Of a stretch of DNA of 64,000 nucleotides, positions 22,882-39,205 are shown one piece after another (within the stretch, counting starts at the first letter, position 1; each line of letters begins with the position of its first letter). The stretch covers positions 310,001-374,000 of the forward strand of contig JAFLBH010000003.1 of the NCBI GenBank assembly GCA_017303905.1. The letters are read 5' to 3'. The notes under the pieces are model-generated. The model searched no databases. It was not told the DNA's origin and saw nothing but the letters and a program-made list of their open reading frames with translations. The position numbers and the translations under genes were made by a program. Source of the stretch: Bacteroidota bacterium. GTDB lineage: Bacteria > Bacteroidota > Bacteroidia > B-17B0 > Aurantibacillaceae.

Positions 22882-23853
22882 ATGAGAAAGTTAATAATTA
22901 TTGCCGCCCTTCCGGCACTCATTTCATGTAGTGATAATGAAGCCAAATTTAAAGAGGTATATAGTGAAGAACAATTAGGAGAACTGCTCTTTTTCGACCC
23001 GCTCCTTTCGAGTGATAGTACTATTTCCTGCGCATCCTGCCACAAACCTGAATTCGCATTTGCAGATAATACACCTACAAGTGTAGGAGTACACGGACGA
23101 AAAGGCGACCGTAATACACCGAGTGCCATGAACCAAAGCGCACGTAATTTTCAGTTTTGGGATGGCCGTGAAGAGACTTTAGAGGGACAGGCTTTAGGTC
23201 CGATTGAAAACCCTGTTGAAATGGATTTGCCTGTAAGCGCATTGATTGAACGACTCTATAAACACCCACACTACCCCCGCTTTTTCATGCGTGTTTATGG
23301 CAAAATGCCAAACCGCGATAATATTGCGAAAGCCATTTCTGCCTATGAGCGCACCCTTGAAACAAACGACACTCCTTTTGATGATTATATGAAAACCGGA
23401 GATACTACAGAATTTTCGGCTTCTGCACGCCGCGGACAAGAAATATTTAACGTGAAAGGAAAGTGTTTTGATTGTCATTTTGGTCCGGATTTTACCAACG
23501 ATATGTTTAGAAACCTTGGATTATTTAACGGAAAAGATCTAAACGACAGTGGACGTTTTGAAGTGACCCGTAAACCGGAAGACATTGGTCGCTTTAAAAC
23601 ACCGGGCTTACGCAACATTGCCATGACAGCACCTTACATGCATAACGGGATGCACAAAACTTTACGCGAAGTTATCGACTATTATAATGAACCGGATAAA
23701 TTTGTAAATAACAGCGTTAATCGCGATAGTTTATTGAATAAACCATTAGGCTTAACTGAAGGCGAGAAAAAAGATTTGGAAAATTTCTTGTTAACCCTAA
23801 CTGACCGCAGATTCAAGAAAAAAGAAATTGCTTCGAACGAAAAAGCACATTAA
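22882..23853 (+). CDS. Dihaem cytochrome c peroxidase / MauG family lipoprotein
   Basis: A 323-residue periplasmic protein with lipobox LISC (Cys16). It has two c-type haem sites, CASCH (C50, C53, H54) and CFDCH (C195, C198, H199). TAPYMHNGMHKTLREVIDYYN is the conserved distal region of the family. Cytochrome c peroxidases reduce hydrogen peroxide with electrons from small cytochromes; MauG relatives oxidise protein residues. The sequence does not separate these. It converges on the DUF2490 gene with a 4-nt overlap. Confidence 0.93.
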   Translation: MRKLIIIAALPALISCSDNEAKFKEVYSEEQLGELLFFDPLLSSDSTISCASCHKPEFAFADNTPTSVGVHGRKGDRNTPSAMNQSARNFQFWDGREETLEGQALGPIENPVEMDLPVSALIERLYKHPHYPRFFMRVYGKMPNRDNIAKAISAYERTLETNDTPFDDYMKTGDTTEFSASARRGQEIFNVKGKCFDCHFGPDFTNDMFRNLGLFNGKDLNDSGRFEVTRKPEDIGRFKTPGLRNIAMTAPYMHNGMHKTLREVIDYYNEPDKFVNNSVNRDSLLNKPLGLTEGEKKDLENFLLTLTDRRFKKKEIASNEKAH

Positions 23854-24554
23854 AATTTATGCGCGTAAGTTAAACCGTAAATAAAATCACGATTGGTTTT
23901 ATTAAAGGCATTTAACTCGTGTTGTAATAAAAAATAGCCCTCCAGGGTTATTTTTTTTGTCAAGTTGTATTCAACTCCGGCAGCACTCCGCGAGCGGCTT
24001 AATCCTTTATTCCGCACCTGATAAAACGGTAAATAAACCTCTTCGTAAACATATGCGGTAATGCGTTTATTTATTTCATATTTAAGCGTTAACTTATTTC
24101 TGTTCATGTAAACCGGAACAGTCCCATTTTCACTGGTGTAAATATCACGCATTCGTAACTGAAACATATTTCGGTATGAAATAGCTAATGAACCAAATTT
24201 CTTTTTAAAGGTTAGAGAGAAATTACCTCTGTGACGATTGCCGTAAGTACCATTGAGGTTACGCGATTTACCCCATCCATACTCCGCTTCTGCTTTTATG
24301 TATTTATTTACACTGTATGAAAACCCTCCAAACAAAGCGCCCAATCTATAATCAGATACATTATTATTAAAGCGATTCTTAAACTCAATATGCGCATCAA
24401 TGTTATCGGTAATTTTCTTTTCGAAGTAAAAATTAAGCCATAGCGCGGCATCATCCTCAAAATCGGATTGTGCCACTACAAAAGAAGCAGAAAACAAAAT
24501 GAGAACAGATACAATATGTCGTAAACTTTTATTCAAAATAAAAAATCTTAACAA
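23850..24554 (-). CDS. DUF2490-type outer-membrane protein
   Basis: A 234-residue protein with a signal sequence ending FSASFVVAQ and a mature part of about 12 amphipathic strands (AALWLNFYFEKKITDNIDAHIEFKNRFNNN…, ending FIYGLTYAHKF), matching the DUF2490 family of small barrels of unknown role. It is the last of eight same-strand genes and overlaps the DUF4956 gene by 26 nt, so translation is probably coupled. By position it may give the system an outer-membrane component; that is inference. Confidence 0.8.
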   Translation of the reverse strand: MLRFFILNKSLRHIVSVLILFSASFVVAQSDFEDDAALWLNFYFEKKITDNIDAHIEFKNRFNNNVSDYRLGALFGGFSYSVNKYIKAEAEYGWGKSRNLNGTYGNRHRGNFSLTFKKKFGSLAISYRNMFQLRMRDIYTSENGTVPVYMNRNKLTLKYEINKRITAYVYEEVYLPFYQVRNKGLSRSRSAAGVEYNLTKKITLEGYFLLQHELNAFNKTNRDFIYGLTYAHKF

Positions 24555-25179
24555 CTGCGGAATCCTTTAAAAAATCAATCTTTTGAACAGATACACGGTG
24601 TACGTTGATACCTGTGCGTTTTTTAATATCCTCAATCAATTCCTTCTCACGTGAAGTTTCAATTAAATTAATGTTTTCATACACTATGGTTTTAACCGAC
24701 TCCTTCTTCATTAATAATTTGCTCTCTAAAAGATAGGCCACTATAATGATTAATCCGTTAATACAACCTACAAACATTGCTTCAGTTGAATCGGCTGTGC
24801 CTTTAATTTTAGTAACCGCCGAAATTAATCCGATTGCAATTACTAAAAACAAATAAGTCATGTCTTTAAGGCTGATATCCTCCGTGCGATAACGTAACAT
24901 ACTAAACACAGCGAATAAACCGAAGGCAGCTCCCATACTCAAATCAACTTTATTTAATAGGAAGCATATCATGAAAATCACAATATTGAAAACGAAGTAA
25001 GTAAAGAATAATTCGCGCTTTTTATAAATAGGGAAATAAACGAAACGAATTAAAATGAGTACAGATAAAAAATCGACAACAAACCTCAATCCAAGCTTTG
25101 CTGATATTTTATAAAAGGCGTCTAAGCCCGGACCTGTTGCTACTTCATCAGCTATTTGCAATATTAAGCCTGCTTCCAT
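24529..25179 (-). CDS. DUF4956 integral membrane protein, partner of the VTC-domain protein
   Basis: 216 residues with four or five membrane spans (about 33–50, 58–75, 81–95, 107–123, 134–152) and a cytoplasmic C-terminal domain (about 155–216). GAAFGLFAVFSMLRYRTEDISLKDMTYLF is the conserved DUF4956 block. Genes of this family recur beside VTC-type polyphosphate polymerase and CotH genes in many bacteria (family knowledge). By analogy with the membrane part of the eukaryotic VTC complex, it may form a channel or anchor for a polymer made by the adjacent enzyme; this is inference. It overlaps the VTC gene by 32 nt. Confidence 0.87.
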   Translation of the reverse strand: MEAGLILQIADEVATGPGLDAFYKISAKLGLRFVVDFLSVLILIRFVYFPIYKKRELFFTYFVFNIVIFMICFLLNKVDLSMGAAFGLFAVFSMLRYRTEDISLKDMTYLFLVIAIGLISAVTKIKGTADSTEAMFVGCINGLIIIVAYLLESKLLMKKESVKTIVYENINLIETSREKELIEDIKKRTGINVHRVSVQKIDFLKDSAVVKIFYFE

Positions 25180-25921
25180 GTAGAATATTTTTTAACGATT
25201 GTAATTTTTCTTTAAAGTTATTTTTTTTCGCGTAAGGTTTAGTTAAAGCTATCCCCATACAATATTTACTGATGGAACCTTCTCTAATGTGCAATTCCTT
25301 CATTTTTGACAAGAACACAGAGGGAGATTTTTTATCTAATTTAACCTCAGCAATTACTAAGGAGTTTAAATTTTGTGTTAAGCCTTCGTTAATAAATTCC
25401 AAATCCACATCAATTGTTACGCGTTCGGTATTATTCTTACTTACTAAAGTTATTCGTTTGTAATTCACCCACAAAGTAGGCTTTAAAACATCCGGACTAT
25501 ATGGAGTTTTGGCAAGAAGAAAGTCACCCGTCTCTTTTTCCCAAGTCATTGGGGTCAATTTCTTTTTAATTCGTTCTTTAATAGTTCTTCCCTTATTGTT
25601 TTTAAACTTCACCTCCAAATAGCCGGTGTCGCTATCCACATAAGTACGGTGACGGATTTTGTATCGGTTTAAATGACCATTATGGTGATTCAGATACATT
25701 TTTAAATTGTCGGTATCGTAATACAAGGTTTTGTAAGCGCTCTGACGTTTACCTTCCACCTCCAAAACCTTATAATCATCTTTTACCATTAAAAGCACTT
25801 TCTCCAATTCGTTTTCAGTAAAAGTGAATTTAGTATCTGTGCGATCCATTAATTTTACGGTATCCATCTCTTTGAGACTGATAGGTTCGAAATGCATCAA
25901 TATGTCTTGAACAGACTCCAA
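25148..25921 (-). CDS. VTC-type polyphosphate polymerase domain protein
   Basis: A 257-residue cytoplasmic protein with the triphosphate-tunnel fold of the VTC4 catalytic domain. Basic and acidic tunnel positions are visible: R27 and K31 in MDRTDTKFTF, KIRHRTY at about 88–94, LEVKFK (E103, K105, K107), KGRTIKERI at about 110–118, then VTIDVDLEF and the metal-binding type motif VIAEVKLDK. VTC4 makes polyphosphate from ATP at membranes. Whether this protein makes polyphosphate or uses another triphosphate substrate needs assay. It is followed by the overlapping DUF4956 membrane gene. Confidence 0.87.
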   Translation of the reverse strand: MESVQDILMHFEPISLKEMDTVKLMDRTDTKFTFTENELEKVLLMVKDDYKVLEVEGKRQSAYKTLYYDTDNLKMYLNHHNGHLNRYKIRHRTYVDSDTGYLEVKFKNNKGRTIKERIKKKLTPMTWEKETGDFLLAKTPYSPDVLKPTLWVNYKRITLVSKNNTERVTIDVDLEFINEGLTQNLNSLVIAEVKLDKKSPSVFLSKMKELHIREGSISKYCMGIALTKPYAKKNNFKEKLQSLKNILHGSRLNIANS

Positions 25922-25922
25922 A

Positions 25923-26399
25923 TTATTTATACTCGTAAGTATACTTTTTTACTGAAATTAAATTATTATTTGCGTCGAAAGATTTACGTTCTGTTTTTAG
26001 ACCTTTACCATCGTATGTATAAACGTTCTTTTTTACCAACTTTCCGTTTGTATCTGTAATCGTTTCTTCAATCTTTTCCCCTAATGAGCTGTACTTGAAA
26101 TTTCTTTTCTCCTTTAATGCTCCCTTCTCATCGTATTCAGCCTCTTCCAACACATCACCCTCGCTATTGTGCTTATATTTAATCGTTGTTTTTAGAACCC
26201 CGTTTTTATCATAATTAATTTCTTCAATGGCCTCACCGGTTGTACCGAACACCGTTCGACTATCATTAATGGTTTTTCCGTTTTCAGTATTGGAAACAGT
26301 CACTGCTTTTATTTTGTACTTCTTAACTTCCTTTTTCTTTTGAGCAAAAGAAATCGAGACTATACATATACATAACGTTGCAAAAAGTAAACGTTTCAT
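25923..26399 (-). CDS. Small exported repeat protein of unknown function
   Basis: 158 residues from the ATG at 26399: signal peptide MKRLLFATLCICIVSISFAQ, then a Lys-rich linker and about five repeats of roughly 22–25 residues (EINYDKNGVLKTTIKYKHNSEG, EAEYDEKGALKEKRNFKYSSLG, ETITDTNGKLVKKNVYTYDGKG), reminiscent of YD-like or MORN-like beta repeats. No function is assigned. It lies between the lipoprotein and VTC genes, 1 nt from the latter. An ATG at 26408 adds three residues and would overlap the upstream stop. Confidence 0.75.
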   Translation of the reverse strand: MKRLLFATLCICIVSISFAQKKKEVKKYKIKAVTVSNTENGKTINDSRTVFGTTGEAIEEINYDKNGVLKTTIKYKHNSEGDVLEEAEYDEKGALKEKRNFKYSSLGEKIEETITDTNGKLVKKNVYTYDGKGLKTERKSFDANNNLISVKKYTYEYK

Positions 26400-26400
26400 T

Positions 26401-26817
26401 TTAATCAAAAATAGTAATGGTTCCTAAATCCGCCTTTTCCTTCTTGTCTTTTATCTCAATCTCTTTCACAACAACCGTATCACCGGATTGAGCTGTGAAG
26501 GTATTATCCTGAGAATAAACATACACTTTGTACTTACCTTTTCTTAAATACTTGAATTCAAATTCTCCTTTGTAATTTGTAGTTTGTTTATCACCATAAT
26601 TGGTTTCATCACCATAAATTATATATACATCTACATCAGCTCCTGCATATTCACCATTTAAAACAGTAAAACTTGAGTTCCAATTCTCCACCCAAATTTT
26701 TCCTCTTATACTTGCCTTTCCGCCTTCTCCGGCGACCTTCTTACAAGATGCTATTGCAAAAATTAATCCCGTAAATAAAATCGCGGCTTTAAAGCACTTT
26801 GCTAAATTTTGCTTCAT
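26401..26817 (-). CDS. Lipoprotein with carboxypeptidase-regulatory-like/transthyretin fold
   Basis: A 138-residue lipoprotein: the signal ends FAIASC (lipobox). The mature part is one beta-sandwich domain with SIRGKIWVENWNSS…, TNYKGEFEFKYLRKGKYKVYVYS and a final DLGTITIFD strand, as in carboxypeptidase-regulatory-like domains. It probably supports protein or glycan interaction at the membrane. It lies 5 nt downstream of the CotH-kinase gene in the same operon. Confidence 0.8.
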   Translation of the reverse strand: MKQNLAKCFKAAILFTGLIFAIASCKKVAGEGGKASIRGKIWVENWNSSFTVLNGEYAGADVDVYIIYGDETNYGDKQTTNYKGEFEFKYLRKGKYKVYVYSQDNTFTAQSGDTVVVKEIEIKDKKEKADLGTITIFD

Positions 26818-26822
26818 AAATT

Positions 26823-29090
26823 TTAATTTGTGATAATGATTTTTTTCGATGCGTTCTTGCTTTTCACAACATATAATCCCGGACTAAACCCTGATACATC
26901 AATAGTTGTTTTTGATTGAACGGTGGTCTTGTAAACCACTTCTCCTATAACATTTACTATTTCAATTGGAATTTCATTACTCAAAGAGTAACTTATTTGT
27001 AAAATACCTGAAGCCGGATTAGGATAAACGCTCAGAAGTCCTTGCTCACCATTCAACTCCTCCACGCTTATCGCGCAATTGGATAACTTAAAAGTTGGGA
27101 AAGCAGTAACAGTAAATGAACCTATGCCATCCGGACAGCGCGCCATGGACTTATCGGTTTGCTGCACCCCGTATGAAATACTATCTAATACTGCACCGGT
27201 TGAATTACTCAGCATAATTTGTTCGCCGGCGGCTGCCAATTTAAAATTGGCATGTACATACGATGCAGTTGATGGATTCTCATCCGCCCAAATAATCAAA
27301 TAACCGTTCGGTTGAATGATTGTATTTTGTGGAATGGTAAATTTTGACGGACTCGCAAAATTATCCGTTAAAAACAAACCTGACAATTCAAGTGGTGTTG
27401 AAGTAGTATTATGCAATTCAATCCAGTCTTCATATTGATTAAATTCATTTTGCACATCATCTTGGTTGTCGGCCATAAACTCGTTTATTTTTACCTGACC
27501 TACGGTAGCAGTTTGAATGGCAACCAAACTATAAAACTCATGTTCTGCTCTCTCAGGTGCAAACTTACCGGCATTATTATTTTCGGCATACACATAATAC
27601 TGTGCCTGACTGCCGGTCATAGTAAAAGTTACACCGAATACATTATCTCCTGAAGCACCATCATTATGTAGTCCATCATCATACATGGAAATACGTTGAA
27701 ATTTTAAAGTATTCGCGAAACGATAACCCAAATACACTCCGTTTGCGTTTGAAACGTTTGCCGTAATCGTAACTGCTGCATTTAAACTTGGTGTAGCAAT
27801 AGATGTTGCTGAAGTAATTGTTGGGGCTGTTACAGTAAATTCAGAAGTACCATTCAGATATGCGGCACGGGCATTCATTAACGTGCTTATTCCCGGAACC
27901 GAGTAACTTCCCACAGAAATGTTAGACGTCATGGCATTTTGAAACTGCGAATAAGTAAAGAATTTATTATTATCGGATTGAACCGCTGTATCAATCACAC
28001 TTTGAAAAGCGGTTGCTTTTGTTGCATAAGCACCGGAAACAATCATTTCATTTAAAATCGTTTTCATATGCGCTATGTACATACGCTTATATTGCGCATT
28101 ACTCATTATATTTTTAATAAGCGGCCAATACTGGTCAGTGCTGTGAATATTGGTTGGCATTTGTTGCAAGTTGGTAATGGATAAACTCGCCATACTTGAA
28201 TTAGAAAATCCGAGATGTGGAAATCCTGCGAACGACATGTTTAAATCCCAGATAATCGGGTTAAAATGCCCCGTGTTATCTTTATAGAGATAGTAGTTTT
28301 GTGCAAATGCGCCACTGTAACTGTCTAAGTTCACGATTACATTATTATATGCCAACATCCAAATAGCACGATCTAAATCCATCACATTCGGAATACTATT
28401 AGCATTGTTAGTTACAGAGTCACATAAGTCTTTTAATTGATTCCATCCGTAATTGGATTTCATCTCATAAAAATTAAAATACCCGCTGCTGTCTGCGCCT
28501 GTGATATAACGAAGATTACTTTTGGTATTTGTAGTAGCCACGCCAATTGGATTACACTTTACAAACGTGTTATTCGAAGAATAAAAATGATCGGAAACAA
28601 ACTTCTTGTCAATATTCTCTGCATTGGAATAAACTCCCATATATGTTCCATTAATATAAACCTGGGCAAAGTTCGCTTGAGGACAATGCATATAATTTTT
28701 CAAAATATCATACGCTAAGACCTCACGCACGAGCGAAGGGTCGGCATAACCATTACTTAGCTTAACATCTTTATAACCTTGATAAGATTGACTTTTGTAA
28801 GTATTCAATTCAATATGAATAGGGTTTTTCTTATAAGTTGAATCGTAAGAACTATTGCCTTTGTACTTAACACCAACACTATCAAAATAAGTTCCGTTTA
28901 TCTTTACCCACTGAGCCATTATATAATTCTCTTTGCCAAGTTTGGCCGTATCGAGCATATAATCCCAGTTTGGTTGAGAAAATTGAACTTCTATCTTTTG
29001 AATATTAGCTGTATTATAAAAAGTTTGCGCTGTAACTGTATTTAAAATTACAGCTACAACGCAAACAAAAGCAATATGTAAACGATTCAT
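26823..29090 (-). CDS. T9SS-exported CotH kinase-like protein with lamin-tail domain
   Basis: 755 residues. Signal MNRLHIAFVCVVAVILNTVTAQ; a CotH kinase-like domain (about 30–410) with GVKYKGNSSYDS, GYKDVKLSNGYADPSLVREVLAYDIL, FAQVYINGTYMGVYSNAENID and the late acidic WDLNMSF; a beta domain; a lamin-tail (LTD) domain (about 515–640, KINEFMADNQDD, EDWIELHNTTSTPLELSG); and a type A T9SS sorting domain (about 680–755, LSVYPNPASGILQISY … IIITN). CotH proteins of spore-formers are atypical protein kinases. Here the enzyme would act on the cell surface. ATP supply outside the cell is an open question for the kinase reading. Confidence 0.88.
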   Translation of the reverse strand: MNRLHIAFVCVVAVILNTVTAQTFYNTANIQKIEVQFSQPNWDYMLDTAKLGKENYIMAQWVKINGTYFDSVGVKYKGNSSYDSTYKKNPIHIELNTYKSQSYQGYKDVKLSNGYADPSLVREVLAYDILKNYMHCPQANFAQVYINGTYMGVYSNAENIDKKFVSDHFYSSNNTFVKCNPIGVATTNTKSNLRYITGADSSGYFNFYEMKSNYGWNQLKDLCDSVTNNANSIPNVMDLDRAIWMLAYNNVIVNLDSYSGAFAQNYYLYKDNTGHFNPIIWDLNMSFAGFPHLGFSNSSMASLSITNLQQMPTNIHSTDQYWPLIKNIMSNAQYKRMYIAHMKTILNEMIVSGAYATKATAFQSVIDTAVQSDNNKFFTYSQFQNAMTSNISVGSYSVPGISTLMNARAAYLNGTSEFTVTAPTITSATSIATPSLNAAVTITANVSNANGVYLGYRFANTLKFQRISMYDDGLHNDGASGDNVFGVTFTMTGSQAQYYVYAENNNAGKFAPERAEHEFYSLVAIQTATVGQVKINEFMADNQDDVQNEFNQYEDWIELHNTTSTPLELSGLFLTDNFASPSKFTIPQNTIIQPNGYLIIWADENPSTASYVHANFKLAAAGEQIMLSNSTGAVLDSISYGVQQTDKSMARCPDGIGSFTVTAFPTFKLSNCAISVEELNGEQGLLSVYPNPASGILQISYSLSNEIPIEIVNVIGEVVYKTTVQSKTTIDVSGFSPGLYVVKSKNASKKIIITN

Positions 29091-29100
29091 TTAAAAGAAA

Positions 29101-30108
29101 CTATTGAATAATAAGTTTGGAAGTCGATTTGGCATTTTGAGAGTTAATCACTCTTACTAAATAAATTCCGGATTTTAAATCATCTCTCTTGATTTCGATA
29201 TTTTCTCCGTTAGAGCTGTTATAAGTTTGAAGAACTCTTCCGGATAAATCCATGATGGTTGCTTCGTAATTGGTTCCCTTGTCTTTAAACTCAAGTGTTG
29301 CACTACTTACCAATGGATTCGGGTACATTTTTATTCCGCGGATTTCACTGCTATACTCATATACACTCGCTAAGTTACATGTAACGCAAGCTTTATAACA
29401 AACAGTGGGTAAAATTGTATCAGCAATTAAGTTATGTGTACGATTATTATTGGTGGCGCAAGCAGAAGGAACTGTTTCAGCGTCACCGGCTGTATTACCA
29501 TTGTAATATTTAAATTCATAATTTCCTGACGGAGCATAAGCAATCACTTCATATACACCACCGCCAAAACTGTAGAGTATGTTGTTTTTTGTATTCCATG
29601 TTTGTGTTTGGAAATTACCTGCAACGTGAACACCATTTGATGATACTGAAGTTTCATTAGACATATCCACTAAAAAGCGAATCAGTTTTTTACCTGCCGG
29701 CGCATTGCCGGAAAACGGAATAGCTCCTACAAAGGTGGTGTCATTTTTTAATGAATCTACATATAACCAACGGTTGTCGTTGAAGCTGTAACCAACACGC
29801 GATTGATCAGGCACAAACTCCGCTTCATAACCAAAAGTTCCGTTTACAAACTTAAATTCATATTTTGTAAATGCCGGAATATCTACAATAACACTATATA
29901 TTGTAGATGAACCTTCCTGGATTAGGGCTAAAGTGTTGGGTTGCCAATCGCCGCCCGTCAAACCAAGTATAGATTGAAAATCACTCATTAAATGAATTCC
30001 GTTTGGACTTATAGTGAATGTATTCATATCCACCGCAAACTTCACCTTTTTAGCTTGTATGCTTGTAACAGATAATAAAACTAAGGCTAGAAATATATAT
30101 TTTTTCAT
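29101..30108 (-). CDS. T9SS-exported protein with two E-set/CBM-like domains
   Basis: 335 residues: signal MKKYIFLALVLLSVTSIQA; two similar beta domains, the first from KFAVDMNTFTISPNGIHLMSDF (about 23–130) and the second from RFLVDMSNETSVSSNGVHVAGNF (about 143–245), each with a (Y/F)EFK(F/Y)(V/Y)NG strand resembling glycogen-binding or starch-binding (CBM48/CBM20) folds; then a type A T9SS sorting domain (IKMYPNPLVSSATLEF … SKLIIQ). It probably binds a glycan or acts as a scaffold on the surface. Ten nt separate it from the CotH gene. Confidence 0.8.
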   Translation of the reverse strand: MKKYIFLALVLLSVTSIQAKKVKFAVDMNTFTISPNGIHLMSDFQSILGLTGGDWQPNTLALIQEGSSTIYSVIVDIPAFTKYEFKFVNGTFGYEAEFVPDQSRVGYSFNDNRWLYVDSLKNDTTFVGAIPFSGNAPAGKKLIRFLVDMSNETSVSSNGVHVAGNFQTQTWNTKNNILYSFGGGVYEVIAYAPSGNYEFKYYNGNTAGDAETVPSACATNNNRTHNLIADTILPTVCYKACVTCNLASVYEYSSEIRGIKMYPNPLVSSATLEFKDKGTNYEATIMDLSGRVLQTYNSSNGENIEIKRDDLKSGIYLVRVINSQNAKSTSKLIIQ

Positions 30109-30113
30109 TTTAA

Positions 30114-31805
30114 TTATTTTACTAATGATACACGTTTGTTAATTAACATTCCGTCTGCCGTTTGAATGGAGATAAAATAAACGCCACTATCAAACGATGA
30201 TAGATCTAATTTGTTTTCATTCTGTGCGCTTAAGATAATTTTACCTTTAGCATCGATCACATTAACAGAATAACCAATTGATTTAATGTACCAATCATCT
30301 ATAGTAACTACTCCATTCGATGGATTTGGATACACTTTTAAGTTAGCAGCAATTTGATTTTCTTTAATACCAGTAACTAATGTATAAGGATATCCTGCCG
30401 AATAAGCGTATACACAGCCGTTAGAATCCGTCACGCGAACCACATAAATTCCGTTTTGAGTAGGCGTATAATTCTGAGATGTTGCTCCCGAAATTAAATT
30501 ACCATCTACATACCACTGATAGGTTACTCCGGTTGTTGATACCAAATCATTCCCGCTCACTGAAATACTAGGTTGAGCCGGTGCAGGATTAGAAATATAA
30601 CATTGACTGTAACGATGCGACTGAGGACAAGCTCCGCCCGTAGTTTTGGTCCAAATAACATTTCCGGCCGGATCTATTTCATAGATAGTTCCTGACATAG
30701 CTAAACAAACCATTTGATTTCCATTTGGAAACTGATTTGAACTTCCCATGTTACTGGTGTAACCTGTTGAAGTATGACGTAAATTAAAAGTAGAAGGCGT
30801 ATAGGCGCTTCCAAGCGCTAAAGTATAATTGTAGTTAGAACGCGGTACACTGATTTGATCCACTGTTGTTTTTGGTCCGGTTGAGCCTTTATTATTTAAA
30901 CCTACTAAATAACCCGCATTTGTGGTGCCTTCTTTAATCCAATGCGCATCATGTGTAACGTCTAATATTTTTGTTCCGGTTGCCTGATAAGCTAAAGGAT
31001 TTCCCCAACGGTATAAAATATCTCCGCCCATGCCTGAATTACCTCCACTACTTGTAGCTGCTTGAGCAGTTGTTGTACTGTGATCGATAATCCACCACTC
31101 GTTAAGGTTATGTGAGCTAACCACTATTTGATCTAAAATAGGGTTATAATCTATTCCATTCATGTGAACCCAATCCTTCTGTAAATTGTAATTGATGTTT
31201 ACTTTACCAGGATTATTTACAATTGAGGTTTGATAATTTGCTCTGGTTGGATACAAGTTTTGCACCAAATGATCCCATAGCTTCCATTCCCAAACAACAA
31301 TAGCGCTATTTGTACCAACCGGCTGAAGTTCCATTACCTTCTCCGACCAAACCGTTATACTACTTGTTGCTCCTGCATTGTAAGCATCAGTAGCGGTTTT
31401 TACATCATACGCAATAACTAATACGTTACCATTTGGGAGCGGACAATGATCATGGTGTAAACAATAAGTTGCAGAGGAATAAGTATAATCCCATAATTTG
31501 TTACCTGCATAATCCCATTTTTGAATACGGCCGGTCATACCACCACCTGTTAGTATATTTCCTCCCGAATTTGACACAGTTCGCCAAAGTATTCCACCCG
31601 GCATTAGGTGAGTTGAATAACCGGTACCACCTTGTCCGGTAAACGACCACACTTTAACGTTGGTGCTATTGGTATCAATTAAATACCCGCTGGTAGAACC
31701 ATTATTACTGTAATAAGTTAGCCCGTTCCATTGTTGCGCATTTGTAGAAAATGCTAATAGCATTAAGGCCATGACTGCCTTGAATGTAAATTTTAAATTA
31801 TTCAT
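30114..31805 (-). CDS. T9SS-exported arylsulfate sulfotransferase-like protein
   Basis: 563 residues: signal ending FSTNAQ; a beta-propeller resembling PAPS-independent arylsulfate sulfotransferase (ASST), with LHHDHCPLPNGNVLVIAYD (H117, H118, H120), WVHMNGIDYNPILDQIVVSS (H214), THDAHWIKEG (H285, H288) and QSHRYSQ (H397); an Ig-like segment at about 408–475; and a type A T9SS sorting domain (LKVYPNPSNGVVTIDD … NKRVSLVK). ASST transfers sulfuryl groups between phenols through a histidine intermediate. Enzymatic activity is not certain. It is the first gene of the eight-gene operon. Confidence 0.83.
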   Translation of the reverse strand: MNNLKFTFKAVMALMLLAFSTNAQQWNGLTYYSNNGSTSGYLIDTNSTNVKVWSFTGQGGTGYSTHLMPGGILWRTVSNSGGNILTGGGMTGRIQKWDYAGNKLWDYTYSSATYCLHHDHCPLPNGNVLVIAYDVKTATDAYNAGATSSITVWSEKVMELQPVGTNSAIVVWEWKLWDHLVQNLYPTRANYQTSIVNNPGKVNINYNLQKDWVHMNGIDYNPILDQIVVSSHNLNEWWIIDHSTTTAQAATSSGGNSGMGGDILYRWGNPLAYQATGTKILDVTHDAHWIKEGTTNAGYLVGLNNKGSTGPKTTVDQISVPRSNYNYTLALGSAYTPSTFNLRHTSTGYTSNMGSSNQFPNGNQMVCLAMSGTIYEIDPAGNVIWTKTTGGACPQSHRYSQCYISNPAPAQPSISVSGNDLVSTTGVTYQWYVDGNLISGATSQNYTPTQNGIYVVRVTDSNGCVYAYSAGYPYTLVTGIKENQIAANLKVYPNPSNGVVTIDDWYIKSIGYSVNVIDAKGKIILSAQNENKLDLSSFDSGVYFISIQTADGMLINKRVSLVK

Positions 31806-31857: not shown

Positions 31858-31889
31858 TTTGAGGTAAACCCGTTGGGTTTTGAGGTAAA
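31858..31889 (-). promoter_or_regulatory. Candidate LytTR-type operator: two identical 11-bp direct repeats
   Basis: On the minus strand, TTTACCTCAAA occurs at 31889–31879 and again at 31868–31858: a 10-bp spacer and a 21-bp period, two helical turns. LytTR regulators bind such paired direct repeats. The pair lies between the LytTR gene stop (31901) and the ATG of the eight-gene operon (31805). A TATATTTA box (31852–31845) close to the -7 consensus starts 6 nt downstream, so a bound activator would sit over the -33 region. Confidence 0.6.
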
Positions 31890-31900
31890 TTTTAAACCAA

Positions 31901-32587
31901 TTATGAACGCTTATTGAATGCGTCCTGAAAAGCGACCTCATAACTGCTTCCGATTGGGATTTCTGTCTCAGGCAATACAATTATCTTACCTTTAACCGCC
32001 TTAATGCTAGCCAGAGGTACGATAAAAGAGCGGTGAACCCGAATAAACTTATCAGGAGGTAATAATTCCAAAATTCCTTTCATGGTACTTCTGGCTACTA
32101 TTGGCTTACGGCTTGGTAAATGAATCTTGATATAATCATCCAAACCTTCTATGTATAAGACATCCTTATACTCTATCTTATGAAGCGCATAATCCGCTTT
32201 AATATAAAAACACATTTGCTCTTCATTTTTCAAAACTGATTTCAGCTGTTTTACCTTTTGAACAGCTTGATTAAAACGATCTTTTGTAAATGGTTTTAAC
32301 AGATAATCTACGGCATTCAAATCAAATCCCTCCACGGCATAATCGCTATATGCTGTGGTAAAAACAATCATTTTATCTTTTACCATTTTGGCTACGTCAA
32401 TGCCGCTAATCGAGGGCATATTAATGTCGAGAAACAATAAATGAATATCATTTTCCTTTAAGTATTCAATTGCTTCGTGTGGCTTAGTAAAGGTTTTCAG
32501 CAACTCAATTTTATCAACTTCCTTACAAAAACTTTCTATGACTCTTAAAGCGAGTGGTTCATCATCTATGGCTATGGCCCTTATCAT
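31901..32587 (-). CDS. LytTR-family response regulator
   Basis: 228 residues: receiver domain with D8/D9, phospho-acceptor D54 in LLFLDINMPSISG and K98 in DYLLKPF; then a LytTR DNA-binding domain (about 130–228: IEYKDVLYIEGLDDYIKIHL, GILELLPPDKFIRVHRSFIVPLASI, IPIGSSYEVAF). It should be phosphorylated by the adjacent kinase, whose stop codon region overlaps its partner gene by 1 nt. Ninety-five bp downstream starts an operon preceded by LytTR-like direct repeats, its probable target. Confidence 0.95.
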   Translation of the reverse strand: MIRAIAIDDEPLALRVIESFCKEVDKIELLKTFTKPHEAIEYLKENDIHLLFLDINMPSISGIDVAKMVKDKMIVFTTAYSDYAVEGFDLNAVDYLLKPFTKDRFNQAVQKVKQLKSVLKNEEQMCFYIKADYALHKIEYKDVLYIEGLDDYIKIHLPSRKPIVARSTMKGILELLPPDKFIRVHRSFIVPLASIKAVKGKIIVLPETEIPIGSSYEVAFQDAFNKRS

Positions 32588-33690
32588 CAGGATTTGATAC
32601 TTAAAGATACACTAAATGATGTTGAATTGTCGTCGATATTTAAATAATATTTGCCCGGATACAAAAGTTGCAGTCGCGATTTCGTATTCTCAATACCTAA
32701 ACCACTTCTATTCTCAGGATCAGGGCGTATGTTAACTTTATTGTTTTTGACGAATAAATTTATAGCTGCTTCGTTTACACTTATCTCTATCTTTATTTCC
32801 GAATTTTCTTCAGCGTTTACTCCATATTTAAAAGCGTTTTCAATAAATGGAATTAAAATAAGAGGGGCAATTATTTTACCATTCGTAGATCCGTTAACGG
32901 AGACATGCAGCTTCACATTCGCATCGAGTCGTGTTTTTTGCAATTCAATATAATTATTAATGTAATCCAATTCCTTTTGAAGTGAAACAAATTCATTTTG
33001 TGATTCGGTTAAAACATACCGCATCATTCCCGATAACTTCACTACCGCATTCGCTGTTTCGTCTGATTTCTGAATCGCTAATGAATAAATACTGTTTAAT
33101 GTATTAAACAAAAAGTGCGGATTTATTTGTGCTTTCAAGTAAGATAATTCGGCGTTGATTTTTTCTTTGTGCGCCTGCTTCAATCGCTCATTTATCTTAA
33201 GCATCAGTGATAATAATAACACACCTGAAAAAAGGAAAAAATGTCTCGAAACATCAATCCAGAATACGGTCTTTAAAAAGAAAGGCGGCGGTCCGGGATG
33301 AGGCGACTGATGAGGACGGTGATGAGGCGGGCCATGCATATCATCCGGCATTTGAAGTGGCGCATCATGCGGCATATGCATTTCATGATTAACCTGATGA
33401 AAATCGTGAATTAAGACGCGCGGTAAAATTTCCGCTATCAAATAACAGCCAAGCACAACTGCAAAGTAAAAAATGTACTTTTTTGAATAATAAAGCTTCG
33501 GTATCAAAATGTAATAATTCACATAAAAAAAGGTAAGCAGTAATAAATAGGTAAAAAAATCGCGAAGAAAAGGAGGAATGGTGAATAATCGTTCTATCCT
33601 TATTAAATCAGGAGAAATTAAAATTGGAACAGAAAGAAATAATATGATTCCTACCAAGTGCGCCAATACATATCTGTAATTAAGCTTCAT
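32587..33690 (-). CDS. LytS/YehU-type sensor histidine kinase with His/Met-rich loop
   Basis: 367 residues: four membrane spans (about 8–27, 44–64, 71–91, 146–166), then a histidine-kinase domain with the phospho-acceptor in QINPHFLFNTLNS (H192) and an ATPase with APLILIPFIENAFKYGV and GLGIENTKSRL. The loop between spans 3 and 4 (about 92–140), periplasmic by the positive-inside pattern, has ten His and four Met between residues 95 and 131, followed by Pro-rich sequence. Such loops often bind copper, nickel or zinc, so a metal signal is plausible but unproved. Confidence 0.92.
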   Translation of the reverse strand: MKLNYRYVLAHLVGIILFLSVPILISPDLIRIERLFTIPPFLRDFFTYLLLLTFFYVNYYILIPKLYYSKKYIFYFAVVLGCYLIAEILPRVLIHDFHQVNHEMHMPHDAPLQMPDDMHGPPHHRPHQSPHPGPPPFFLKTVFWIDVSRHFFLFSGVLLLSLMLKINERLKQAHKEKINAELSYLKAQINPHFLFNTLNSIYSLAIQKSDETANAVVKLSGMMRYVLTESQNEFVSLQKELDYINNYIELQKTRLDANVKLHVSVNGSTNGKIIAPLILIPFIENAFKYGVNAEENSEIKIEISVNEAAINLFVKNNKVNIRPDPENRSGLGIENTKSRLQLLYPGKYYLNIDDNSTSFSVSLSIKS

Positions 33691-34195: not shown

Positions 34196-37100
34196 TTAAC
34201 GCATTATAACCATTTTACCCAATTCCTTGGTAAAATATTGATCGGCCTCTGTGGATTGATGTTCGATTTTTTGTCCGTTTAACTTCGTTTGAACTTTATA
34301 TAAATAAACTCCATTTGCTAACTTATCACCGAAATCATCCTTTCCATCCCAGGCATACTCAGTAATATTACGACCAATGTGTAAAGGACCTAATTCATCC
34401 TTAGTAATGGTTTTTACAATTTTGCCGGTGATTGTCATGATCTGAATATTGAATGTTTCAGGCACTTCACTTCCTGTTAGATTAAACACAAAACGTGTAG
34501 AGGTACTGAATGGATTAGGATAATTCACAACCTGCGTTATACTTGGTTTATTCACTACTTCAAAAGTGATGCGATAATCAACTGCACCGGACTGGTTGTT
34601 ACTTCTGTCTTTTGCCTGAACAATTAAAATATATTTTCCATCCTGAGGCAATTGCGGATTGTACTCAATCTTACAGCTGTTATTAGGTAATTGCGCCGGA
34701 ATAAAATTCAAACCATTTCCAAAATAAATACGTTGTTCCTGTGTATCACTCGGACGTTTCATATAAACAATAAAATCAGCTGTATCATTCAGAGCTAGAA
34801 ATTTATTCTCGTCTTTTAATGAAACTACAATAACCGGCTTTGCAGATACAACATCACCATTCATGATGCGAATCCCGTCAAACGTAACATCCAATAAAGG
34901 ATTTGTGACATCTCTGCTTACAGAAAACGGATAACGCGCCACATTATTAAAATGATATTGCTCCCTTTGATATTTTGCATTTTGAGGTGGATTTACATCT
35001 ACCCATAACGCATTGTTACCGGGAAACTCATAAGAGTTCACAACGATGGTATCAAAAATGATTGCGCCCGGATTAAACGGTTTTGCTTTCAATTTTTGAG
35101 GATAATAATGATTAACGCGATTCGCATCTTCAATCCAATAAGTAAAAACCAAGCTGTCGTTAAACGGAAGTGAGCCAATATTTTCAACCGGTAATACAAT
35201 ACTAAAATTATCCCCCTCTTGCATGGAATCCTTTATTGCAACAAATCCTTTTTTAGGATTAATGGCGCATTCAGGAGCCTCGTCATACAACACATACCAA
35301 TGTTTTAATTGCGGTGAAGTTCTATGAATATTATCCTTCTTATAAGCGATAAGCTGAATATAAGAATGCACATTCGCATCCGCATAATTATATAAATCCA
35401 ACACATTCAAACTATCTTCCGTAAATGTAACCAAGGTATCAATCTGTCCTGTTTTTCGAATACCCACCACTTTTATTTTTGTAGAGTCGCCCGCGGTGGC
35501 ATCTAAACTTCTAACACGCCAATGCAAGCTATTCCATTTATAACCCGGACCGATTATTTCAGAAGCAACGTAACCGTCATTCCATCTCGTTTTGAGGGTA
35601 TCATTTAATTCAACCGGAGTAAATGTATTTATTGCAACAACTTGATTAGCCTGACCCGCCGTCATTCCTTTTCTTCCGAAAATTATCACAGGTGTGCTAT
35701 CACTAACCGTTTTAATATTGCCTCCAATTCCTTCGAATGCGCTTATTAATGATGGCGGATACGTTGGGATTTCATGTTTCTGTGCAGAATAGGCCAAAAC
35801 ATAACTATTAACAGGAATTGAATTTAAAAAGTTTTCCAAATCCAATTTCCAAAGTTTAGCCGCTCCACAGTAATTTGTCGAACCAAAATCATAAGAATAC
35901 AAAGGTTGCGCTTGTGTTACACAATTACAATTGTTACTTGGACCAAAACCGGGAAGATTAGCTCCCATATTAGATTGCCAAGGCTTAGTTGAAATAGAAT
36001 CAAACACGACAACACTCCAGCCATTCCATGCGCAATTCCATGTATGCTTAATAGATCCATTCAATGAATAAATGATGTTAGCTGGATCTATATTATAAAT
36101 AATTCCTGTTCTGCAGAATAAGGAAATCCTATCATTTTCAAATGCAAATTGTCTTTGCGGTTTTTTATACTTCACAAATTGATAGCCATCGTTCTTAAAT
36201 TGAAAAAAATGTGATTGTCCCCAACCATGTTTATTGGTGATGGTTTGGAATGAACTTTCGCGCCACACGTATGTATCATTAGGACCGGTTGAATCTTTAC
36301 TCACTCTCCAAAAATAAACCGTACTATCTGCAAAAGGCAAGTTAACGGTCCACTCCACTACCCCACCGCTGCTTTGAATGACAGTTTGTTGAAGCGGTGA
36401 AGTAAAAGCATCTGTGGTATCTAATTGTAATTTATAATTACGTGATAAAGCGAAAGGATCGGATGTAGACGCTTTTAAAGTTATAGTTGGTGTGGATGGA
36501 ACAACCGCGTATTTGTATGGATAGACAGGCACGAGATCACCGCCTTGAATAAACACATCCACTGTTCCGGTCGTTTTATTGTTATTCTCGTTCTCTTCAG
36601 CTACTCCGTTATAGGCATCAACAAACACCTTGAATTTATTTAAGCCTAAACCTCGTGTATAATCAATTGGAATGAAAAACTTAAGTGTATCCTTGTAAGC
36701 AGGCGACTTCATTCGCTTATAAACCGTTAATGAATCTCCATTCGGGAAGTATCGTTCAGTCTTCACAAAAAAAGTATCGGCTTTCGCAACACCCAAATTT
36801 GTTATATCAATAGAAACACCAATTGAATCAACATATGACTTCAAATCAAAGCTTACTTTGCTATTATCGATAAAATAATCCGGTAAACGGCCCACAGATA
36901 TTTTCACGGCAGGATCGCCATGCAATGTCATGTCCAATGCTGTAAAATGCTGAATTGAATTACCAAGTTGTTGTGCCGACTTTAAACACGCTTCTTGTAC
37001 AATTTCACCTAAACCCTTATTGTATTTTGTTTGCCCTAATGCCCTATAAATACTTCCGGTATAACTATCGAGCGTGTTTACAAATCCTAAATTACTTGCT

Positions 37101-39205
37101 GCCAGAAATGCAATAGTTCCCTTTTGTTTAATGATGACGAATTTTTCGGAATTACTAATGGCATTAAACGTATGAATATTTCCGGAGAAGCAAGAGTTTG
37201 CAATAAGAAACGGATACTTACCTGCATTGTTATATGCGTTAGGATCATCAATAGCCTGGTCGAATCCGGATACAGAACCATGCCCGAAAAACGTGACGAG
37301 TCCTACGCCATAATTAAAATGATTTTTAACAGAATCGGTAATCGTTATTTGAATTGGAGCCGTTGTGGTTTTTTTAAAATCAAAAACTTTACCTCCGTAT
37401 AAGGTGTCTTGAATCACGTTTTTATAACCGTTCAAATAACTCTGAAACAAATTTTGTTCGCTGGTGTTTGTTCCTCCGGCAAAATGCAAGACATGCTTTT
37501 TCCATTCGGCCGGCGGTGAGCTTTCGTGCTGTTGAACTTTAGCAAGATACTCGGTAACATCGGTAGAAGTTTGCGCCGCTAATCGACCGATAGGAATCTC
37601 AGGCGTTACAAAATCATTTGTTTTTAACCCGGCTGTATATAAATTATCGGAAGGAGGAATACCCATTGAGGGAACTAAAGATTTTTTCCAGGCGGCAGCT
37701 CCCTGCGTTATCATTTCACGATGTTGTACTGACTTTCCGATTAAGAAAACATTACGCGGATAGGAAGGTAAACTATCCATCAAGTAACGACAAAAATTAC
37801 GGATAGCTAAGGGATGTTTTTTTATACCATAGGCAAATTGATCATATAACTCTTCAACGTCGGCTAATACTGTATTATGAGAACCGCCCGCAGTACTTTG
37901 TCGGTAAGAAGCATAAGCATTAGCCTCCGACATAAATTTTGTTTGTGTAATAATTACGAAAGCGGAATCGGCTGTGTTTGACTTATAATATTTGAAATAA
38001 CCCGTTTGATTTACCGGCTTCAAAGTATCAATCATCACAATTCCTTCTTCCGCACCCAGGTAACAACGCTTTTGCCCGCCTGAATTTGGCACTAACACTT
38101 TTACAAATCCGGCATTTATAACATTTTCTATGCGCTTGTTATTTGTAATGTCATAAAACAAAACCGAATTGGTAGTTCCGGTATTAACACTACTTAATTT
38201 CAAATAACTTTTCGGATTGGCAGCATCATCATCAACTACTAATTTGTAAAAGGAAGCATTATCTAAATCAGGAACCTGAGGATACTTATAATAAATATAA
38301 TGAAGAACGGTATTATTGTTGTTGCCGGCAAAAATTGGATTATTGATAGAACTTACTTCCACGTTAGAATTATTACCAAGAGTATTAGACGTTAAACTGA
38401 ATGAATAAACAAAAGGCAGATATCCTTTGAATATTGTATCAAATAAAGTAATTGGTGTAGATGAAGAATTGTAAATAACACCTTTGATTTCATGATCTTT
38501 TAGCAAAGAACCGTTTGTGCTTGCTCCGGAAAAACCAAATTTTAAATACACAGGTAAAGCTGCTGAGTTGTACATTCGGTAATTACTCAAATTAGGACCG
38601 AGAACAAAACCATTCTTAAGCGATCCTCCATAACCTTCTTCTTGCGTATAATGAGGGTCGCTCACATCAAATCCGTAAGACTCCACTTTATTGTACTCGC
38701 CCTTTCCCGTATAAATCAATTCATTGTAAAAATAAGCAGCCGGTGCTTGTAAGGCAGAAGCGGTATCGGTTTCAAGTGTAATACGTTTATTGGCAGTAGA
38801 ATTATTCCAAGTTAAAAACGCGTAGATGGTATCGCTAAACAAAGAAATATAACGATTTGGCAAGTAAGTAATATTTCTATACAAAGTTGAATCGAAAGAA
38901 CCATCATTCATTTCCGCGAAAAACTCAATGAAGTCATTTCCATTGAACACATTGTCATTTTCGCCTTTTATGTATATGTGTTTTTCCTGTCCTTTTAAAA
39001 ACAGTTGAAAGTTCTTAGGATTGATGGATGACAAATTAATTCCGCTATTAGCGAGAGCAAGGGAATCGATTCGGTAAAAACCGGTTTTCTTTATAGGAAA
39101 CTTGTAGTATTTGTTTGAAAAATTAATCCACTCATTATGATAAACCTGAGCTTTAAGTGAAACACCTAAAACCAAAATTATCAGTATAGGGATTAGCTTT
39201 TTCAT
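34196..39205 (-). CDS. Long PorU2-like C25 cysteine peptidase / T9SS sortase homologue
   Basis: 1669 residues with signal MKKLIPILIILVLGVSLKA. After an N-terminal beta region comes a gingipain-type C25 domain (about 430–790): the catalytic His is in FFGHG (H642) and the Cys in ANSCFSG (C672). CARDB-like and other beta domains follow (GVAEENENNNKTTGTVDVF…), and the end (about 1575–1669) is a FlgD-like/sorting-type domain, NYPNPFSTSTRFVFNL … WDGKDDFGDKLANGVYLYKV. PorU cleaves sorting domains and attaches cargo to anionic LPS; typical PorU is ~1100–1300 residues, so this fits the longer PorU2 type. Its start overlaps the porV-like gene by 4 nt. Confidence 0.86.
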   Translation of the reverse strand: MKKLIPILIILVLGVSLKAQVYHNEWINFSNKYYKFPIKKTGFYRIDSLALANSGINLSSINPKNFQLFLKGQEKHIYIKGENDNVFNGNDFIEFFAEMNDGSFDSTLYRNITYLPNRYISLFSDTIYAFLTWNNSTANKRITLETDTASALQAPAAYFYNELIYTGKGEYNKVESYGFDVSDPHYTQEEGYGGSLKNGFVLGPNLSNYRMYNSAALPVYLKFGFSGASTNGSLLKDHEIKGVIYNSSSTPITLFDTIFKGYLPFVYSFSLTSNTLGNNSNVEVSSINNPIFAGNNNNTVLHYIYYKYPQVPDLDNASFYKLVVDDDAANPKSYLKLSSVNTGTTNSVLFYDITNNKRIENVINAGFVKVLVPNSGGQKRCYLGAEEGIVMIDTLKPVNQTGYFKYYKSNTADSAFVIITQTKFMSEANAYASYRQSTAGGSHNTVLADVEELYDQFAYGIKKHPLAIRNFCRYLMDSLPSYPRNVFLIGKSVQHREMITQGAAAWKKSLVPSMGIPPSDNLYTAGLKTNDFVTPEIPIGRLAAQTSTDVTEYLAKVQQHESSPPAEWKKHVLHFAGGTNTSEQNLFQSYLNGYKNVIQDTLYGGKVFDFKKTTTAPIQITITDSVKNHFNYGVGLVTFFGHGSVSGFDQAIDDPNAYNNAGKYPFLIANSCFSGNIHTFNAISNSEKFVIIKQKGTIAFLAASNLGFVNTLDSYTGSIYRALGQTKYNKGLGEIVQEACLKSAQQLGNSIQHFTALDMTLHGDPAVKISVGRLPDYFIDNSKVSFDLKSYVDSIGVSIDITNLGVAKADTFFVKTERYFPNGDSLTVYKRMKSPAYKDTLKFFIPIDYTRGLGLNKFKVFVDAYNGVAEENENNNKTTGTVDVFIQGGDLVPVYPYKYAVVPSTPTITLKASTSDPFALSRNYKLQLDTTDAFTSPLQQTVIQSSGGVVEWTVNLPFADSTVYFWRVSKDSTGPNDTYVWRESSFQTITNKHGWGQSHFFQFKNDGYQFVKYKKPQRQFAFENDRISLFCRTGIIYNIDPANIIYSLNGSIKHTWNCAWNGWSVVVFDSISTKPWQSNMGANLPGFGPSNNCNCVTQAQPLYSYDFGSTNYCGAAKLWKLDLENFLNSIPVNSYVLAYSAQKHEIPTYPPSLISAFEGIGGNIKTVSDSTPVIIFGRKGMTAGQANQVVAINTFTPVELNDTLKTRWNDGYVASEIIGPGYKWNSLHWRVRSLDATAGDSTKIKVVGIRKTGQIDTLVTFTEDSLNVLDLYNYADANVHSYIQLIAYKKDNIHRTSPQLKHWYVLYDEAPECAINPKKGFVAIKDSMQEGDNFSIVLPVENIGSLPFNDSLVFTYWIEDANRVNHYYPQKLKAKPFNPGAIIFDTIVVNSYEFPGNNALWVDVNPPQNAKYQREQYHFNNVARYPFSVSRDVTNPLLDVTFDGIRIMNGDVVSAKPVIVVSLKDENKFLALNDTADFIVYMKRPSDTQEQRIYFGNGLNFIPAQLPNNSCKIEYNPQLPQDGKYILIVQAKDRSNNQSGAVDYRITFEVVNKPSITQVVNYPNPFSTSTRFVFNLTGSEVPETFNIQIMTITGKIVKTITKDELGPLHIGRNITEYAWDGKDDFGDKLANGVYLYKVQTKLNGQKIEHQSTEADQYFTKELGKMVIMR

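Follow-up and report, generated by a model that had tools for sequence, protein, structure and literature searches.

An eight-gene Bacteroidota operon as a two-membrane, type IX secretion-linked variant of the CotH–VTC–DUF4956 module and a candidate for polyanion export

What a candidate polyphosphate polymerase, a membrane protein of the DUF4956 family and a set of predicted surface enzymes do together in one operon is the question raised by a locus of a Bacteroidota bacterium of the family Aurantibacillaceae. The window analysed here is a stretch of 64,000 nucleotides (assembly GCA_017303905.1, contig JAFLBH010000003.1, positions 310,001 to 374,000), in which positions are counted from the first letter. 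An earlier note on this DNA had described eight minus-strand genes between positions 23850 and 31805, and all eight open reading frames (ORFs) were confirmed at these coordinates by an ORF check. They are separated by gaps of 1, 5, 5 and 10 nt or overlap by 8, 26 and 32 nt. In the direction of transcription, they encode an arylsulfotransferase-like (ASST-like) β-propeller, a duplicated E-set protein, a CotH kinase-like protein, a small lipoprotein, a MORN-like repeat protein, a VTC-domain protein, a DUF4956 protein and a DUF2490 protein, which we take to be an outer-membrane β-barrel, as presumed for its family (Table 1). Each domain named in the note was upheld by Pfam; the E-set protein resembles X25/CBM-like domains, and the repeat protein reaches MORN_2 only below threshold. 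The ASST-like, E-set and CotH proteins all carry the Por_Secre_tail sorting domain, with which TIGR04183 agrees, and the genome encodes SprA, the translocon of the type IX secretion system (T9SS); a type A C-terminal sorting domain and the system that exports such cargo are thus both present. The operon represents a variant of the known CotH–VTC–DUF4956 module, set in a two-membrane envelope and linked to T9SS. We tentatively propose that it is a dedicated envelope operon which may make and export a polyanion.

The gene neighbourhoods were surveyed in annotated DUF4956 loci, 61 from the same family and 39 from a sample of 257 genomes of the phylum. The complete order from the ASST-like gene to the DUF2490 gene is present in nine family loci, the window included, when the loci are anchored on DUF4956, and parts of the set recur in other families in other orders. 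Together these show that the eight-gene order is not due to chance. The VTC gene lies immediately 5′ of the DUF4956 gene in 52 of the 61 family loci, overlapping it in 48, and in 18 of the 20 close phylum loci. Within the family, a MORN-like gene is located upstream in 49 loci, a DUF2490 gene nearby in 32 and a CotH gene nearby in 22. ASST (PF05935) and DUF4956 are both present in 21 of the 257 phylum-sample genomes; in six of these, belonging to six families, they lie at most 8 kb apart, against an expectation of 0.13 (Poisson P 5e-9; 2e-7 if the genome of the window is left out). Because the gene orders differ among these ASST–DUF4956 loci, the association has arisen or been retained more than once. 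The conservation of gene order in relatives, on which the earlier note had staked its proposal, was thereby found, as was the recurrent linkage of ASST and CotH genes to DUF4956/VTC pairs for which it had suggested a survey of Bacteroidota. The ASST–E-set–CotH group also occurs apart from VTC–DUF4956 in two loci, and in one genus its place is taken by another T9SS protein, about 550 aa long and with no known catalytic domain (L079:11261-12919 and similar). From this pattern of occurrence across loci, MORN–VTC–DUF4956, with or without DUF2490, is regarded as the core and the exported enzymes as variable cargo. The MORN–VTC–DUF4956 block also stands behind other gene sets in five loci, one of which has glycosyltransferase-like genes; the position of the block after such genes would hint at a link to polysaccharide.

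The association of VTC, DUF4956 and CotH genes is not new in itself. Gram-positive pel loci carry CotH, polyphosphate polymerase and DUF4956 genes (PMC7112168), and the earlier note was right that the linkage is known. Its description of the linkage as functionally unexplained is slightly outdated, as deletion of the DUF4956 or the CotH gene within SIR_1592-1594 of Streptococcus intermedius altered the amount of Pel and aggregation (PMC12345266). The same study found no synteny of the three genes outside the Pel locus. The window operon contains no pel genes, and PelG was not found in the genome; contrary to that study, the CotH–VTC–DUF4956 association is not tied to Pel. In both settings CotH, a VTC-type polymerase and an MgtC/ACT-like membrane protein are encoded in the same neighbourhood and CotH is secreted. 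The window differs from the pel accessory genes by its two membranes, the DUF2490 barrel, the MORN-like protein and the lipoprotein, by the export of CotH through T9SS, by the ASST-like and E-set partners and by the putative LytS/LytTR control. Unlike in the side-by-side pel trio, the lipoprotein and MORN-like genes lie between CotH and VTC. A literature search on ASST with T9SS, VTC with CotH, and DUF4956, outside which most subscription papers fell, retrieved no study of this Bacteroidota operon type.

The best PDB match of the AlphaFold2 (AF2) model of the VTC protein (pLDDT 91) is yeast Vtc4, with Z 18.0 and rmsd 3.0 over 215 aligned residues. Vtc4 bound to AppNHp-Mn or to a phosphate polymer is matched at Z 17-18, and bacterial and plant triphosphatases of the triphosphate tunnel metalloenzyme (TTM) fold at about 14 (YgiF 13.9). 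The basic residues K31, R90, R92, K105, K115, R117, R156, K194 and K219 and the acidic residues E103 and E192 are invariant in the alignment of 24 diverse VTC homologues, as candidates for the basic tunnel residues and the metal-binding Glu of a polyphosphate polymerase. Like the eukaryotic VTC complex (Vtc4/Vtc3/Vtc1), the window system couples a TTM catalytic domain with a membrane partner; it differs in having a free-standing MgtC-like protein, not a Vtc1-type DUF202 domain, as its membrane part, and in the lack of an SPX domain. Judged by the predicted structure, the VTC protein is a candidate polyphosphate polymerase, and the synthesis and export of polyphosphate would be plausible. Searches of the PDB by phmmer with the single VTC and ASST sequences were of no use, and profiles were required.

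The membrane partner of VTC is, according to its profile alignment, a distant relative of MgtC. With a wide DUF4956 alignment, hhalign gave a match to MgtC that spans 193 columns (95.7%, E 9e-9). A narrow DUF4956 alignment by itself failed to match MgtC (3.4%), and DUF4956 relatives match Pfam MgtC only below the gathering cut-off. The S. intermedius homologue has likewise been described as MgtC/ACT (PMC12345266). The AF2 model of DUF4956 (pLDDT 82) consists of five helices and a C-terminal β-α-β-β unit resembling half of an ACT domain. Neither Foldseek nor VIA-align found a known fold that matched this model convincingly (best E 0.04, top Z 6.2), a result which is not evidence of a new fold. 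Near-universal positions of DUF4956 are confined to one motif, G-L-x3-(S/G)-x2-R-(F/Y)-R. The arginines R96 and R98 are invariant. DUF4956 shares with the MgtC/SapB family the membrane part, to which it is distantly homologous, and an ACT-like C-terminus, and is distinguished from it by the near-constant VTC neighbour, the truncated C-terminal domain and the sub-cut-off Pfam score.

Two different sets of envelope genes accompany VTC–DUF4956. The DUF2490 gene adjoins the pair in 14 of the 20 close phylum loci and is absent from a divergent group of loci, in which a gene for a HlyD-type membrane fusion protein (MFP) stands beside VTC or DUF4956, followed in three cases by a gene resembling an outer-membrane factor (a weak match). 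HlyD-type adaptors adjoin VTC–DUF4956 in seven loci. Some loci show the order DUF4956–MFP–outer-membrane-factor-like, and in three loci of other Bacteroidota DUF4956, HlyD and a TolC-like gene follow one another with no VTC gene nearby. Among the 39 phylum loci with a called DUF4956, no HlyD-type protein accompanies any of the 14 that have DUF2490, whereas 12 of the 25 that lack it have one (Fisher 0.0026). The simplest reading of these neighbourhoods would be that the VTC–DUF4956 module requires a way through the outer membrane, and the replacement of DUF2490 by HlyD/TolC-like parts is consistent with export.

The predicted surface enzymes resemble known catalysts, with differences at or near the active sites. 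The window CotH aligns to the solved CotH 5jd9 (1.2e-8). As in the Bacillus spore-coat kinase (5jd9/5jda), it has the kinase fold and the catalytic positions D256 and N265 and the metal-binding D282, which align with those of the ATP-using 5jd9 and are conserved. It differs from that kinase in its T9SS export, in its LTD domain and in Asn284, which replaces the second Asp of the WDxD motif (WDLN). The ASST-like protein shares the PF05935 propeller with the bacterial arylsulfate sulfotransferase AssT (3elq). Its H214 aligns to AssT His356 and is invariant in the clade; a later invariant histidine, H285, found a counterpart only in the QHD motif of 9kf6, the transient sulfo-His of AssT being residue 436. 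In contrast to AssT, the window protein has a T9SS sorting domain and carries His232 in place of Arg374, as does most of the clade; among nine proteins compared, Arg was found in a single one. In AssT these residues belong to the active site. Sulfotransferase activity of the ASST-like protein should not be assumed from its sequence.

The genes of a LytTR response regulator and a LytS-type histidine kinase lie on the same strand upstream of the operon, with a gap of 95 nt to the ASST-like gene. This gap contains a perfect direct repeat, TTTACCTCAAA-N10-TTTACCTCAAA, 53 nt before the ASST-like start codon. The half-sites of LytTR operators are spaced by about 21 bp, and those of the repeat by 21 bp. 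No second site with up to three mismatches occurs in the 3.95 Mb genome. Similarly spaced repeats at the same distance were found in six of ten loci in which a LytTR gene adjoins ASST and in one of 27 loci in which it does not (Fisher 6e-4). Because the repeat is unique and such repeats are enriched in LytTR-adjacent loci, LytS/LytTR is most likely the dedicated switch of the eight-gene operon, with the repeat as its candidate operator. The kinase has a loop rich in His, Met and Pro (HEMHMPHDAPLQMPDDMHGPPHHRPHQ) between membrane segments, which is possibly metal-binding. Its length and His content differ strongly from one orthologue to another, which speaks against metal sensing. A scan for sigma-70 promoters gave fewer sites than in shuffled sequences and was not used.

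A terminator-like hairpin lies in the signal-peptide codons of the CotH gene and ends at the AQ signal-peptidase site. Like the regulator pair and the LytTR-type repeat, it had been absent from the earlier note. The 96-nt region around it folds 4.8 standard deviations below shuffled sequences (z -4.8), and its folding is equalled by just 4 of 2000 synonymous recodings. A hairpin is present at the same place in 11 distinct CotH loci of three genera with differing paired sequences; the ten outer pairs are retained in all 11, and nine of the ten positions show two to four pair types. As these loci were selected by pairing, the full pairing arises partly by construction, and the evidence lies in the fixed place and the varied pair types. 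Covarying pairs are carried by nine relatives of the window locus. In genomes with several CotH copies, the hairpin is found only in the copy that follows the E-set gene. Sense hairpins of this kind within genes number 25 in 2.46 Mb (2247 ORFs); 12 of them are at the CotH site, and several of the remaining 13 look like mis-called starts. The hairpin matches the pattern of an intrinsic terminator, a GC-containing stem followed by a T run, and is the strongest internal candidate for a feature able to break the transcript between the ASST/E-set and the VTC genes. In E. coli, an intrinsic terminator that closely follows a gene is suppressed by a translating ribosome (PMC4824070). A ribosome following the polymerase closely would suppress such a terminator, so that expression of CotH and the genes downstream could depend on CotH translation. 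The ASST-like and E-set proteins would then be made in excess over CotH, VTC and DUF4956. Against this stands the finding that at least eight orthologues of the operon have no such hairpin. If the CotH hairpin terminates transcription, it would be an unusual means of setting the ratio between the two halves of a secretion-related operon.

For the operon as a whole, we propose that the LytS/LytTR pair would turn on the expression of a dedicated envelope function. VTC and DUF4956 would form a single inner-membrane unit, in which VTC, facing the cytoplasm, may polymerise the phosphate of ATP, and DUF4956, as the MgtC-like membrane part, may anchor VTC and let the polyanion into the periplasm. From there it would be taken over the outer membrane by the DUF2490 barrel together with the MORN-like protein and the lipoprotein, as the HlyD-type and TolC-like parts may do in other lineages. 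T9SS would bring CotH, the E-set protein and the ASST-like propeller to the surface, where matrix components could be phosphorylated, bound or sulfated, and an acidic, cation-binding surface layer would result. The Vtc4-like model, the near-constant adjacency of VTC and DUF4956 and the neighbouring barrel or HlyD-type protein speak for the suggestion of the earlier note that the pair makes and moves polyphosphate or a similar polymer. Several points weigh against it. To our knowledge, MgtC is a regulator and not a channel for polymers. PPK1 is also encoded in the genome, and VTC would therefore be dispensable for bulk polyphosphate and more likely serve a special pool. CotH and ASST are missing from many VTC–DUF4956 loci. 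DUF2490 and HlyD track different DUF4956 clades, so that their mutual exclusivity does not stand for many separate events and may go back to one ancient event. Deletion of the VTC gene of S. intermedius had no reported phenotype, and deletions of its DUF4956 and CotH genes shift the Pel level in opposite directions, which together are a misfit with a simple linear pathway (PMC12345266).

Export of a polyanion by a dedicated envelope operon thus has a competitor, possible if somewhat unlikely, in which VTC–DUF4956 is an MgtC-like regulatory module: DUF4956 would sense through its ACT-like domain and would regulate VTC activity or the metabolism of phosphate or ATP, polyphosphate would be internal or a signal, and the surface enzymes would be co-regulated outputs. 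The alignment to MgtC and the effect of the S. intermedius DUF4956 gene on the Pel level agree with this, whereas the constant neighbours of the module are envelope proteins (DUF2490, MORN-like, HlyD-type and TolC-like). It is rather unlikely that the VTC-like protein is a TTM enzyme of another activity, a triphosphatase or the maker of a polymer other than polyphosphate, in the service of an exopolysaccharide or glycoprotein matrix. The TTM fold also serves triphosphatases and cyclases, which match the model at Z 11-14, the trio lies beside Pel genes in Gram-positives, and genes of glycosyltransferase or glycoside hydrolase type adjoin it in some relatives; the margin of Vtc proteins over other TTM enzymes is nevertheless 3-4 Z units, Pfam assigns the protein to VTC and not to CYTH, and PelG is missing from the genome. 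The earlier note had gone further, with exported enzymes that use or attach the polymer and so solve the phosphate supply of a surface kinase, and for this part nothing was found in support. That exported CotH takes its phosphate from exported polyphosphate appears very improbable: recurrent CotH linkage and the want of an obvious extracellular ATP source would favour it, but CotH is nearby in just 22 of the 61 family loci and its catalytic residues align with those of an ATP-using kinase. We also know of no precedent for it. Least probable of all is a merely convenient co-transcribed set with no common pathway, for which the separate ASST–E-set–CotH groups and the changing exported partners could be cited; against it, the linkage returns in six families with the genes variously ordered, much more often than chance would give. 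The proposed export operon is a compact candidate for polyphosphate export, in that a single set of genes would provide the polymerase and its membrane partner as well as components for the outer membrane and enzymes for the surface, and we know of no established route of polyphosphate to the bacterial cell exterior. Its fullest form is doubtful: a bacterial VTC-type pathway that would secrete polyphosphate through both membranes by VTC, DUF4956 and either DUF2490 or HlyD/TolC-like parts, for a phospho- and sulfo-modified, phosphate-rich surface matrix, with the operon halves balanced by a translation-sensitive terminator in the signal-peptide codons.

Table 1. Predicted features of the eight-gene operon and its surroundings in the window.
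Feature	Position	Strand	Basis
Terminator-like hairpin and T run, operon 3′ end	23845..23864	-	Pattern scan, consensus match only
DUF2490 protein, predicted outer-membrane β-barrel	23850..24554	-	Pfam PF10677 6.4e-23
DUF4956 inner-membrane protein, distant MgtC relative	24529..25179	-	Pfam PF16316 3.9e-52; AF2 model pLDDT 82; hhalign MgtC 95.7%
VTC-domain protein, triphosphate-tunnel fold, candidate polyphosphate polymerase	25148..25921	-	Pfam PF09359 1.2e-29; AF2 pLDDT 91; Vtc4 Z 18.0
Secreted MORN-like repeat protein, directly 5′ of VTC	25923..26408	-	PF07661 (MORN_2) 4e-4, sub-threshold
Small lipoprotein, β-sandwich-like domain	26401..26817	-	Sub-threshold SdrD_B/CarboxypepD_reg matches; conserved in relatives
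CotH kinase-like protein with LTD and T9SS type A sorting domain	26823..29090	-	PF08757 3.4e-47, PF00932, PF18962
Terminator-like hairpin in CotH signal-peptide codons	29023..29066	-	18-bp stem, 8-nt loop, T5 tail
Duplicated X25/CBM-like E-set protein with T9SS type A sorting domain	29101..30108	-	PF22058 1.1e-6, PF18962
ASST-like β-propeller with T9SS type A sorting domain	30114..31805	-	PF05935 3e-13, PF18962
Perfect direct repeat, candidate LytTR operator	31858..31889	-	Half-sites identical, 21-bp spacing
LytTR response regulator	31901..32587	-	PF00072 1.2e-19, PF04397 2.5e-15
LytS-type histidine kinase	32587..33690	-	PF06580 9.6e-29
PorU2-type putative sortase	34196..39205	-	NF052324 1.5e-217
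1500-aa protein	56118..60620	+	No Pfam match at 1e-5

The regulator genes and a short lipoprotein-like ORF are immediately preceded by the gene of the PorU2-type putative sortase listed in Table 1.

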